A DNA stretch of 22,872 nucleotides from IMG/VR virus record IMGVR_UViG_3300020184_000036, positions 1-22,872 of that record. One strand, 5' to 3'. Of this stretch, positions 41 through 20,826 are shown one piece after another (position 1 is the stretch's first letter; each line of letters opens with the position of its first letter). Made by a program: the position numbers and the translations under genes. The stretch is from a virus. Below the pieces are notes generated by a model. That model was not told the DNA's origin and made no database searches. It saw only the letters and a list, made by a program, of their open reading frames with translations.

Positions 41-184
41 TTATTGTATTTTAGAGTTAGTGTCAAGGATTGAATCAATTTCTTTTTGACTAAGGTTTAA
101 AAACTTTTCATTTTCAAGGTAGAAGAAGAAAGCTTTGGTTATATTAGTATAGTCAGATTGAGTTAAGGTAATTGTTTTAGACAT
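41..184 (-). CDS. small hypothetical protein (47 aa), leftward
   Basis: Reading leftward from ATG at 184 gives a 47-residue protein beginning MSKTITLTQSDYTN and ending DTNSKIQ, with TAA at 43-41. It is mostly polar, with an aromatic patch (AFFFYLENE, about residues 18-26), and looks like a small soluble helical protein. There is no recognisable domain. The start is supported by a promoter-like repeat whose TATAATTG box lies 18 bases upstream, exactly the spacing of the second repeat copy before the gene at 441-572. The next leftward gene begins one base past its stop. It is probably an early or regulatory small phage gene, by position on the strand opposite the structural genes. Function unknown. 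Confidence 0.6.
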   Translation of the reverse strand: MSKTITLTQSDYTNITKAFFFYLENEKFLNLSQKEIDSILDTNSKIQ

Positions 185-197
185 AATATATATTTTT

Positions 198-260
198 ATA
201 TTCAATTATATTATCGAGGTAAGGTCGTGTTTAGACTGTGAAGGGTGATATGCTATACAC
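198..260 (-). promoter_or_regulatory. repeated promoter-like cassette, copy A (leftward)
   Basis: On the reverse strand this region carries, in order, GTGTATAGCA (260-251), a CTAAACACGA block (232-223) and CGATAATATAATTGAATAT (216-198). The same three blocks occur at 586-656. The 19-base core matches copy B at 18 of 19 positions. The TATAATTG box (210-203) lies 18 bases before the ATG at 184, the same distance as in copy B. TATAATTG is one mismatch from the Bacteroidota -7 consensus TAnnTTTG. No clear -33 TTG is seen; the conserved CTAAnCACGA block lies 12 to 14 bases upstream and may replace it. A short GC hairpin (264-276, GGGCC-CCT-GGCCC on the reverse strand) precedes the cassette. Confidence 0.6.
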
Positions 261-275
261 TGGGGGCCAGGGGCC

Positions 276-428
276 CTAGTCCAGGACCTCAACCCCGATG
301 ATCTTCGAGTAGATCTCATGGTGTCCCATGAACCGGATGTAGTTACGGAGATGGGATTCCCCGTTGAACGTCTGGACCCGGCTGTTATAGTTGCCCATCC
401 AGTTCTTTGTATCAATTCTTACTTTCAT
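276..428 (-). CDS. small hypothetical protein (50 aa), leftward
   Basis: ATG at 428 reads leftward for 50 residues, beginning MKVRIDTKNWMGNYN and ending GVEVLD, stop TAG at 278-276. The composition is that of a real protein: basic N-terminus, then alternating aromatic and charged residues (LRNYIRFMGHHEIYSK, about residues 27-42). It is visibly more GC-rich than its neighbours, with codons such as CTC, ATC and GTC, unlike the AT-rich usage elsewhere in the phage, which could mean recent transfer. It lies 12 bases after the stop of the membrane protein gene at 441-572, so the two probably share a transcript. The stop codon overlaps the GC hairpin of promoter copy A. A 69-residue reading in another frame of this stretch is a shadow. 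No family recognised. Confidence 0.6.
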   Translation of the reverse strand: MKVRIDTKNWMGNYNSRVQTFNGESHLRNYIRFMGHHEIYSKIIGVEVLD

Positions 429-440
429 AGTTGTTAGGTT

Positions 441-572
441 TTACATGAAGATCCCGTACGATACAGAATCAAGGTTAGACAATACGGTTATGATACCGCC
501 GATTAACATAGTCAGGTAAGCCGTTACGATTACTCCGATGATTATTTGTTTGTGTGTGAATTTACGTTTCAT
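441..572 (-). CDS. small single-pass membrane protein (43 aa), leftward
   Basis: From ATG at 572 the frame encodes MKRKFTHKQIIIGVIVTAYL followed by a further hydrophobic stretch and a short polar tail ending GIFM, stop at 443-441. A basic N-terminus (KRK) followed by one hydrophobic helix (about residues 10-30) predicts one membrane span with the N-terminus inside. A longer in-frame start at 656 exists, but its added 28 residues would run across the promoter-like repeat at 586-656, so the 572 start is preferred. The TATATTTG box lies 18 bases upstream. It is the first gene of the leftward unit. Possible roles for such phage proteins include superinfection exclusion or interference with host membrane functions, but nothing here identifies one. 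Confidence 0.6.
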   Translation of the reverse strand: MKRKFTHKQIIIGVIVTAYLTMLIGGIITVLSNLDSVSYGIFM

Positions 573-585
573 AACTGGTAATTTA

Positions 586-656
586 ATATTCAAATATATT
601 ATCGGAACAGGATCGTGGTTAGTCTGCAAAACGGCGGGCGGCTCTTTGCTATACAC
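586..656 (-). promoter_or_regulatory. repeated promoter-like cassette, copy B (leftward)
   Basis: This is the second copy of the element at 198-260. On the reverse strand it reads GTGTATAGCA (656-647), CTAACCACGA (624-615) and CGATAATATATTTGAATAT (604-586). The box TATATTTG (598-591) is a perfect match to the Bacteroidota -7 motif TAnnTTTG and ends 18 bases before the ATG at 572. The 14 bases between CACGA and the box are conserved in number in both copies. Immediately upstream is a perfect 5-bp GC hairpin, GCTGC-GCTA-GCAGC, at 657-670; copy A also has a GC hairpin at the corresponding place. The combined conservation of sequence and spacing in front of two different genes supports a promoter. 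Confidence 0.65.
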
Positions 657-8364: not shown

Positions 8365-9915
8365 ATGTCTGACGCAATAGTTAAGAACTTAAACTTTGGA
8401 AGCGATGCGCGCTCTAAGGTTTACGAAGGTATTGAAAAGCTAACAAAAGCCGTTAGCTCCACACTCGGGGCTAGCGGTCTTAGCGTAATACTTGAAAACG
8501 ATAAAGGTAAACCGGTAATTACAAAAGACGGTGTAACAGTAGCAAACAATATATTTTTGCGAGATCCTGTTGAAAATATGGGCGCAACGCTTTTAAAAGA
8601 TGCTGCACGAAAAACCGTACAAGAGGCCGGTGATGGAACAACAACCGCAACTGTACTTGCGCATTCAATCCTTAAAAATGCATACAAAGCATTAGAGCAG
8701 GATAGCTCAAGAACACTAAAAGAAGGAATTGCAAGTGGTGTTGAAAAAGTAATTGCATATTTAGAAAAGATTGCAATACCGGTTGACGGCGATATGATTG
8801 ACCAAGTAGCTACTATATCTGCAAATAATGATAAAGAACTTGGTAAGCTTATAAGCGATGCATTTAAGTCCGTAGGTAATACGGGTGTGGTTATTATGCA
8901 AACAACAGATGAGCCTGAAACAACAATAGAGGTTGTAGATGGTGTGCAATATGATCAGCCACTTAAATCTAATCACTTTATAACAAACGAAAATATAAAT
9001 GCTGCAGAGCTGGACAATCCGTATATATTGATATCAGAGTCACCTATACCAAATATACGTAGGATTCAATCCGTATTGGAACATGTTATAAAAAAGAACA
9101 AATCATTATTAGTCATTGCAGATGTTGAACCACAAGTGTTGAACACTCTTGCGATGAATAAAATGAAAGGCAACATAAAGGTTAATGTAATTGACTTACC
9201 AACTTACGGTATAACGCGTAAGGAAGTCATGCAGGATCTTTCTATGCTAACCGGGGCTAAGATTATTAACGAAGATCTCGGAGACGATATGGACCTCATA
9301 GATATTGAAATGCTTGGTACTTGTGTTAAAGCGGTAACTAATACAGAAGAAACTGTTTTGCAAGTTGAAGGTAAATCGGAAGAGGTTGAAGAAAAAATTA
9401 AAGCAATACAAGAAGAGCTTGAAAAGCCAATGTTACCCGGTCACAAGATTAGGTATGAAAAAAGGCTAGCAAGATTATCTGCAAAAGTTGCCGTTGTAAA
9501 AGTCGGTGCTAATTCAGAAGTTGAGTTAAAAGAAAAGCGTGATAGAGTTGAAGACGCTATATGTGCTACAAAAGCCGCGATTAAAGAAGGTATAGTACCA
9601 GGTGGTGGAATAGCCCTTTTAAATGCTGCTCAGAAAATAAAGTCTAGCGGCAAAGGCGAAGAACTACTTTATAAGTCAATTAAAGCGCCTTTCTATACGA
9701 TACTTAGCAATGCAGGTATTGAAGAATTTGAAGAGCCTACTATTAAAGGCAGAGGGTTAAATGTTGTTACAGGGGGTATGGTGAATATGATTAAATCTGG
9801 AATTATCGACCCACTACTTGTTACTAAAAGCGCTCTTCGGAACGCGGCTTCAGTAGCCACAACAATTATATCAACCGATTGTGTAATTAATAATGTTAGA
9901 ATAGAACAGTTATGA
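8365..9915 (+). CDS. groEL: phage-encoded chaperonin GroEL (Hsp60, 516 aa)
   Basis: A full-length group I chaperonin: an ATP-driven double-ring protein that folds enclosed substrates with a GroES lid. The ATP-site elements are present. TLGASG at 33-38 corresponds to E. coli TLGPKG, with Pro and Lys replaced by Ala and Ser. TKDG has Asp55 (E. coli D52), DGTTTATVLA has Asp90 (D87), and RVEDA has Asp397 (D398, hydrolysis). The GGG turn is near 413-415. The apical NIRRIQSVLEHV segment aligns with the E. coli NIREMLPVLEAV region. It ends at VRIEQL and lacks the GGM-repeat tail, so it is shorter than the usual 545 or so residues. It overlaps groES by ATGA. The leader has two CTAATTTAAT copies (8340-8349, 8355-8364). 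It probably folds phage capsid or fibre proteins. Confidence 0.95.
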   Translation: MSDAIVKNLNFGSDARSKVYEGIEKLTKAVSSTLGASGLSVILENDKGKPVITKDGVTVANNIFLRDPVENMGATLLKDAARKTVQEAGDGTTTATVLAHSILKNAYKALEQDSSRTLKEGIASGVEKVIAYLEKIAIPVDGDMIDQVATISANNDKELGKLISDAFKSVGNTGVVIMQTTDEPETTIEVVDGVQYDQPLKSNHFITNENINAAELDNPYILISESPIPNIRRIQSVLEHVIKKNKSLLVIADVEPQVLNTLAMNKMKGNIKVNVIDLPTYGITRKEVMQDLSMLTGAKIINEDLGDDMDLIDIEMLGTCVKAVTNTEETVLQVEGKSEEVEEKIKAIQEELEKPMLPGHKIRYEKRLARLSAKVAVVKVGANSEVELKEKRDRVEDAICATKAAIKEGIVPGGGIALLNAAQKIKSSGKGEELLYKSIKAPFYTILSNAGIEEFEEPTIKGRGLNVVTGGMVNMIKSGIIDPLLVTKSALRNAASVATTIISTDCVINNVRIEQL

Positions 9916-10172
9916 AAGCAGTCGGATTATACTTAATAGTAGAAAAAGAAAAGCAGGGTGCACAAAAAACAGAAGGCGGTCTGCTAATTGCAGAAAATGC
10001 CCGTGAAGATATAAGATACGCAAAAGCAAGCGTAATATCAGCGGGCGCCGATATAGTGGGAATAAAGGCTGGCGATGCTATTTATTATGATAGACACGCC
10101 GGCCATTCCATTGAATTGGATAATAAAGTATATCACGTAATCAAAGCAGCAGATGTAGTCGTTATATTATGA
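9912..10172 (+). CDS. groES: phage-encoded co-chaperonin GroES (86 aa)
   Basis: The lid for the GroEL ring. At 86 residues it is slightly shorter than the usual 95 or so. The mobile loop lies at about residues 13-32, with the conserved Gly-Gly and a hydrophobic triplet LLI (24-26; E. coli IVL) that docks into GroEL apical domains. The second half follows the family pattern: ASVISAGAD, then IKAGDAIYYDRHAG and a closing VIKAADVVVIL, matching the GroES VKVGDIVIF...ESDILAIVE pattern. It follows groEL with a 4-base ATGA overlap, reversing the usual bacterial groES-groEL order. It overlaps the next gene by ATGA as well. The pair is probably made in fixed ratio by coupled translation. Confidence 0.93.
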   Translation: MKAVGLYLIVEKEKQGAQKTEGGLLIAENAREDIRYAKASVISAGADIVGIKAGDAIYYDRHAGHSIELDNKVYHVIKAADVVVIL

Positions 10173-19590: not shown

Positions 19591-19617
19591 TTTTTATTAA
19601 TTTTATAATATTTTATC

Positions 19618-20826
19618 ATGGCAGAAACAGTCAAGCAAGAGGGTGAATTTAAAGTTAAAACCCGAAAAATGAAAAAGCTTTCTGAGACACCTAAAACTAT
19701 TAAAGTAGATTTGTCAAAAAAAGCGGAAGAAACGAAAGAAACAGGTGATACCATTAAGGTAGATCTTACCGAAAAAAAAGAACAAGAAGATGCCGTTCAA
19801 GTCAATACAACAGATGAGAGCAATGCTCCTGTCGAAGAATCCGGAGACTCGCAAAGTAGCGAAGAAGTGGTTGAAGAAGTACGGCAGCCCGAAGAAACGG
19901 TAGAAGATACACCTGTAATACAAGAAGTAACAGAAGAAGAGGTTCAAGAGCAAACTGAAACCTTGCAAGAGCAAGTTGAGGACGCCGTGCAGCAATCACA
20001 AGATACTGCAGAACCATTACCAGAAAACATTCAAAAAGTTGTAGACTTTATGAGTGAGACTGGTGGAACATTAGAAGATTATGTAAGATTAAACGCAGAT
20101 TATTCTAATGTAGATAACAATACACTTTTGCGGGAATATTACCGTCAAAGCAAACCTCATCTAGATTCTGAAGATGTAAGTATTCTTTTAGAAGATTTTA
20201 CATGGGATGAAGATGTAGATGATGAAAAAGATATACGTAAGAAAAAAATTGCGTATAAAGAAGAAGTTGCAAAAGCCAAAGGTTTTTTAGAGGGACTGAA
20301 AGATAAATATTACGACGAGATCAAGTTGAGACCCGGCGTAACTCAAGAACAACAGAAAGCAGTTGACTTTTTCAATCGATACAATGAAGAGCAGCAAACT
20401 ATAAAGCAGCGAACTGAAAGTTTTCAAAATCGTACAAAAACTTATTTCAACGACGATTTCAAAGGTTTTGATTTCAACCTCGGCGAAAAAAAGTTTAGAT
20501 ACGGGTTAAAAGATAACTCTTCAGTTGCAAATCAACAATCAGATATAAGTAACTTTATCAAGAAGTTCTTGAATGACAAAGGTGAAGTGTCAGATTTAAG
20601 CGGATATCATAAAGCTTTATATGTAGCTAACAATCCTGACAGAGTAATAAATCATTTTTATGAGCAGGGGCGTGCAGATGCAGTTCGTGAATTAACAGCT
20701 AAGTCTAAAAACATTAGCGACGAGCCGCGTCAAACACAAACAGGCGATGTATTTATTAATGGTTTAAAAGTCAAAGCTGTTACTGGTGCTGATTCTTCAA
20801 AACTTAGAATTAAAAATAAACGTTAA
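19618..20826 (+). CDS. scaffold-like head assembly protein (402 aa)
   Basis: Lying between portal and major capsid genes, this 402-residue protein has an acidic, Glu/Gln/Val-rich disordered N-terminal third (about 35-135, including VQVNTTDESNAPVEE and EEVVEEVRQPEETVE). A helical core follows (MSETGGTLEDYVRLNADYSN, 142-161; KKKIAYKEEVAKAKGFLEGL) and a basic C-terminus ending KLRIKNKR. That order (acidic disordered region, helices, basic tail) and the place before the MCP gene fit an internal scaffolding protein that binds the coat protein through its charged ends. A protease-cleaved prohead component is the alternative. There is no protease motif. It starts after the AT-rich leader TTTTATAATATTTTATC. 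Confidence 0.7.
   Translation: MAETVKQEGEFKVKTRKMKKLSETPKTIKVDLSKKAEETKETGDTIKVDLTEKKEQEDAVQVNTTDESNAPVEESGDSQSSEEVVEEVRQPEETVEDTPVIQEVTEEEVQEQTETLQEQVEDAVQQSQDTAEPLPENIQKVVDFMSETGGTLEDYVRLNADYSNVDNNTLLREYYRQSKPHLDSEDVSILLEDFTWDEDVDDEKDIRKKKIAYKEEVAKAKGFLEGLKDKYYDEIKLRPGVTQEQQKAVDFFNRYNEEQQTIKQRTESFQNRTKTYFNDDFKGFDFNLGEKKFRYGLKDNSSVANQQSDISNFIKKFLNDKGEVSDLSGYHKALYVANNPDRVINHFYEQGRADAVRELTAKSKNISDEPRQTQTGDVFINGLKVKAVTGADSSKLRIKNKR

Follow-up and report, generated by a model that had tools for sequence, protein, structure and literature searches.

The left end of the window, the 22,872-base IMG/VR fragment analysed here, carries two copies of a promoter-like cassette of fixed spacing before unrelated small genes, which raises the question of whether they belong to a wider promoter class and what reads it. 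The plus strand of the window bears a late cassette of podovirus type, in which TerL, the portal and the major virion protein have PHROG matches; the relatives of this TerL come from phages of Flavobacterium, Cellulophaga, Maribacter and Tenacibaculum. The window also encodes GroEL (8365–9915, +) and GroES (9912–10172, +), which are common to the whole phage group. Both copies point leftward, where the late genes and the small leftward genes diverge. Copy 1 (CTAAACACGA-N14-TATAATTG; 234–203, minus strand) lies 18 nt from the ATG at 184, and copy 2 (CTAACCACGA-N14-TATATTTG; 622–591, minus strand) 18 nt from the ATG at 572, while their common 19-base core, CGATAATATAwTTGAATAT, differs at one position. 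These positions, the strand, the 14-base gap, the distance to the ATG, the core and the GTGTATAGCA elements at 260 and 656 were all measured as given in the original prediction.

A motif scan of the window returned these two hits only, at the scores listed in Table 1 and with a matrix whose training set (about 166 sites) contained both copies, while the maximum in 100 shuffled windows was 7.9 bits. The GC hairpins, which had been singled out as preceding each copy, fold no better than shuffled sequences (z −0.3 and −0.5) and were rejected as part of the unit. GTATAGC is a real extra element, as it occurs 29 times against 1.95 expected within 80 nt upstream of 168 sites (about 15-fold enrichment), although it is loosely placed at variable distance and often fused as GTATAGCATTTACAAA.

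Table 1. Features of the two promoter copies and of the small genes behind them (window positions)
Feature	Position	Strand	Basis
Promoter copy 1, 38-column motif CCTTCACAGTCTAAACACGACCTTACCTCGATAATATA	207..244	-	PWM 34.8 bits
Copy 1 upstream block (block 1)	225..241	-	motif columns 3-19
Copy 1 GATAATATA block (-10 type)	207..215	-	motif columns 29-37
Predicted +1 of copy 1 (ATG at 184 after a 19-nt leader)	203	-	start-codon spike and purine at column 41, 1176 sites
47-aa ORF behind copy 1	41..184	-	small early ORFs at syntenic places in relatives
Promoter copy 2, 38-column motif GTTTTGCAGACTAACCACGATCCTGTTCCGATAATATA	595..632	-	PWM 36.4 bits
Copy 2 upstream block (block 1)	613..629	-	motif columns 3-19
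Copy 2 GATAATATA block (-10 type)	595..603	-	motif columns 29-37
Predicted +1 of copy 2 (ATG at 572 after a 19-nt leader)	591	-	start-codon spike and purine at column 41
43-aa ORF behind copy 2, membrane-like	441..572	-	same ORF start after same promoter in L343 and L030
Second ORF behind copy 2, 50 aa	276..428	-	similar ORF after promoter at G020:35378
GTGTATAGCA element of copy 1	251..260	-	sequence
GTGTATAGCA element of copy 2	647..656	-	sequence

The two copies are members of a large promoter set found among marine Bacteroidota viruses. When viral contigs were scanned for the originally predicted pattern, 53 stretches were obtained, among which those with the exact 14-base gap have many further bases in common outside the search pattern. 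An iterated weight matrix applied at a cut-off of 8 bits to 22 related phage contigs (1.05 Mb) identified 169 sites, nearly all above 20 bits, against 0.67 above 8 bits and none above 10 bits in Markov controls, and all the DNA fetched contained 620, later 1176, distinct sites. The suspected phage-specific promoter class is thus strongly supported, and the further copies that had been anticipated are present, eight of them in the closest long relative of the window (G020, 93 kb). The blocks first described are real, but the full motif is longer than had been noted, with the consensus TTACAAACTAAAYACGA-N9-GATAATATA followed by A-rich sequence, where the gap is rigid (9 in 733 of 736 block pairs). 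Each of the 22 contigs has 1–11 sites, all on one strand per contig (nearly all, beyond these contigs), which cluster in the early cassette on the strand opposite to the late genes. Neither the promoter class nor its sigma factor was found reported in the part of the literature that was searched.

Isolated sites were encountered in cellular assemblies as well. One 43.5-bit site (L533:10319 (+); G041:C2 near 984319) lies near parA/parB-like genes, without the sigma gene described below, in a 1.39-Mb contig of a Flavobacteriales metagenome-assembled genome (MAG), which is perhaps a mis-join, while one 38.7-bit site (L529:11135 (−), G044:C9) lies in a 64-kb contig of a Prochlorococcus single-cell genome, in which the sigma gene was not found. 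None of the motif-carrying MAG contigs was found to encode the sigma factor, two of the four stopping short of the place expected for it.

The first ATG that opens an ORF of at least 40 codons lies at column 41, 4 nt past GATAATATA, for 126 sites, whereas the neighbouring columns 40 and 42 have it only 2 and 5 times, respectively; 99% of the 1176 sites carry a purine at column 41. As the start-codon spike and the purine coincide, +1 is probably at column 41, a placement based on codon statistics, which would put GATAAT at −12 to −7 and make many of the messages leaderless.

To search for candidate readers, proteins from 16 motif-bearing contigs were clustered and compared with those of three motif-less relatives. 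Two families occur in every contig spanning the region and are missing from the three relatives, namely a sigma-70 factor (family 19) and f13. Family 19 is a protein of about 253 aa, encoded a few kb downstream of the array, which matches PHROG 351 (E 3.7e-22), TIGR02937 (50.3 bits, cut-off 42.9), Pfam sigma region 2 (26.1 bits, cut-off 24) and, below the cut-off of 24.1, Pfam region 4 (20.1 bits), while SigA in the PDB (3e-10) is aligned over both regions 2 and 4. Its model is only moderate (pLDDT 74, pTM 0.46), as the placement of the domains is uncertain, and Foldseek matches it to SigA/RpoD with a probability of 1.00 (E 1.1e-5) at low TM-scores (about 0.3). By homology over regions 2 and 4 and by predicted fold, family 19 is therefore identified as a sigma-70 factor.

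The sigma gene and the motif accompany each other closely. Seventy-five of 80 sigma loci carry the motif, 425 of the sites sharing the strand of the sigma gene and 5 lying opposite to it, and the remaining five loci each have less than 1.5 kb of upstream sequence. Among large contigs chosen by the motif, 19 of 20 carry both sigma and f13, while the sigma-less relatives, which comprise three complete genomes (MW202828, with 63% TerL identity, elemoA and Panino), contain neither sigma nor motif nor f13. In several genomes the sigma gene itself starts at or near column 41, immediately preceded by the motif. The phage sigma is most likely the reader of the promoter class, and the viruses thus seem to have moved away from the promoter code of their host. 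Among the points against this model, G005 and G002 contain T instead of G at −12, while sigma region 2.4 is unchanged, so that covariation of this base with region 2.4 was rejected; and, if the array needs the sigma factor, the model gives no account of the origin of the first sigma. The window itself encodes neither sigma nor f13, as the contig ends, but its own phage may well carry both genes, which in G020 are located at 42844–43605 (sigma) and 42243 (f13).

The second family, f13, is a 206-aa protein with a C-terminal helix-turn-helix (HTH), encoded beside sigma, which shares a weak match with HTH_11 (19.9 bits, below 25) and has no fold match in the PDB. It is present in 156 of 166 sigma-positive sequences. 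G033 contains sigma without f13 and has TTCGAA in place of TTACAA, and all nine f13-less sigma-positive sequences with more than 5 kb upstream (five distinct contigs) likewise possess CG (TTCGAA) rather than AC (TTACAA). With a matrix blind to the AC/CG part, CG was recovered in all eight f13-less sequences with at least three sites, several of which are loci that overlap on a shared contig (five contigs are represented), and in no f13-positive record. Records chosen by the motif divide likewise, as f13 is present in 19 of 19 of the AC type and in none of six of the CG type, while among 15 records chosen by the CG motif alone none has f13 and six have sigma. On the tree of sigma sequences, the records without f13 group as a single clade within the f13-positive ones, so that loss of f13 and the promoter change amount to about one event and are not proof. 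In lineages other than this clade, the upstream part has changed in all the sites of a lineage at once, with GATAATATA unchanged. Most simply, f13 would determine the upstream part and sigma would read the rest, although the two may divide the motif differently. Several expected correlates were sought and rejected. The recognition helix of f13 does not covary with the upstream variants, as L401 has a rare T to K change but the HTH of the AT and GC variants is without matching changes; no family both occurs in all five f13-less contigs and is absent elsewhere, as a replacement for f13 would be; and no column of sigma region 4.2 differs consistently with the switch, as would be expected if region 4 read the changed upstream part.

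The array is thus probably read by the phage sigma-70 factor with f13 as its partner, in a podovirus-like phage of marine Bacteroidota. The two copies of the window would be the first promoters of an array of presumably early genes. The phage sigma (about 253 aa) would bind the host core RNA polymerase and read the conserved YACGA and GATAATATA, f13 would help to read the upstream TTACAA part, and transcription would begin 4 nt past GATAATATA, so that the mRNAs of many small early genes would have a short leader or none. A stricter version, in which sigma takes the constant YACGA and GATAATATA of one rigid promoter, the HTH partner takes an upstream part rewritten in each lineage across all promoters, and no host promoters are used at all, so that the first sigma would have to enter with the virion, is rather doubtful.

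Phage-encoded sigma factors with cognate promoters, such as T4 gp55 and SPO1 gp28 and gp33/34, are a known kind of system, to which the present one probably belongs. It resembles them in having a phage protein of the sigma-70 family that would redirect the host RNA polymerase to phage promoters with an accessory partner, and differs in the placement of the array before small early genes of Bacteroidota phages, in the long upstream block and in the apparently leaderless mRNAs. The closest relative of this sigma in the phage collection shares at most about 32% identity.

A host polymerase with its own sigma and a phage activator, either f13 or another early protein, could instead read the array in the manner of T4 middle promoters, leaving the phage sigma to serve the late genes. 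In T4, MotA and AsiA appropriate the host sigma, and a phage box is placed 12 ± 1 bp from a host-type −10 (PMC2988021). The present promoters likewise have a phage element near −30 that replaces the −35 box, with a −10 downstream, a predicted DNA-binding phage protein (f13) whose presence tracks the upstream block, and an upstream block overlapping the position of the MotA box (PMC2988021). No relation of f13 to MotA was detected by the profile and PDB fold searches used for f13. The late genes of sigma-positive phages, moreover, are preceded by a separate AT-rich promoter-like motif, TATAATATTTTATC followed by ATG (19604–19617 (+) in the window, with the ATG at 19618), which occurs 2–4 times per genome, often after a terminator-like hairpin, and is replaced by TAnnTTTG boxes in the sigma-less relatives; the phage sigma might read this motif as well as, or instead of, the early array. 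Unlike T4 middle promoters, however, the gap is exactly 9, GATAATATA is not a host-type −10 and a phage sigma is present. The primary sigma of Bacteroidota (sigma-ABfr) reads promoters with TTTG and TAnnTTTG (PMC7366714, PMC6847099), which the present class resembles in the A-rich leaders without obvious Shine-Dalgarno sequence and in the TATATTTG within some copies, but not in its GATAATATA core, its conserved YACGA block, a +1 four nt after the core and the lack of TTTG at −33. The host −7 element ends 4–5 nt before +1 in F. johnsoniae, where most mRNAs have leaders (PMC6847099), and a host reading of TATAWTTG therefore does not fit, as the start-codon spike precedes any possible host +1. 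As the rest of the motif is also retained in phages without f13, and motif and sigma co-occur on the same strand and in the same place, reading by the host sigma with an activator is unlikely. The original proposal of a host sigma aided by a phage activator hence survives in part: the phage sigma is the likelier reader, while an activator-like HTH partner does seem to be involved upstream.

An ordinary host promoter with a weak −33 box, doubled by chance in the window, would agree with the earlier assignment of the box to the Bacteroidota −7 motif, as TATATTTG of copy 2 indeed fits TAnnTTTG, but the probable +1 does not fit the host geometry. As a general account it is refuted, since TTG occupies the host-box columns in only 84 of 1176 sites, a 35-bp motif is common to hundreds of sites, and TAnnTTTG boxes upstream of genes show no excess in sigma-positive phages (16 against 17.3 expected), in contrast to the sigma-less relatives (25 against 4.9); it can be given hardly any weight. 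No host-type promoters stand out in the sigma-positive phages, where a single one per genome would vanish in the noise. A motif this long, informative and rigidly spaced is of the kind that phage polymerases read, and the array might be recognised by a phage-encoded polymerase (compare T7, N4 and crAss-like phages) or by a modified one, which had indeed been suggested. Such a reader is nevertheless very improbable, given the two-block −35/−10 layout with an adjacent sigma gene. When conserved early proteins and giant late proteins were tested against PHROGs and Pfam, neither a phage nor a modified polymerase was found, nor a convincing DFDGD-type signature, though a divergent enzyme might escape such searches. 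Finally, a recombination, packaging or replication signal would agree with many copies on one strand, but the −10-like sequence and the fixed relation to start codons, which spike at one nucleotide (column 41), make a non-promoter repeat scarcely credible.

With the phage sigma and f13 as the probable readers, the array makes it possible to read the transcription code of marine phages that are common but uncultured (over a hundred contigs were found), and it predicts where transcription starts for more than a thousand small early genes, many of which would be leaderless. What distinguishes it among phage sigma systems is the host group, the rigid multi-part layout, the leaderless early genes and the f13-linked switch, in which the loss of f13 with the promoter change offers a natural experiment on how promoter recognition is split between a sigma factor and its partner and co-evolves with them. 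Family 18 early proteins of 83–123 aa (L192:13464-13784 (+) and homologues), which have no known relatives, are encoded close to the beginning of the array in nearly all genomes, sometimes twice. In G060 (L282; C1:65129-66500) stops break the reading frames of both sigma and f13, owing to either sequencing errors or decay. Two sigma/f13 sets are encoded in G059 (L273), a 129.5-kb contig, and in G052 (L247), a 66.4-kb contig with one set near each end.
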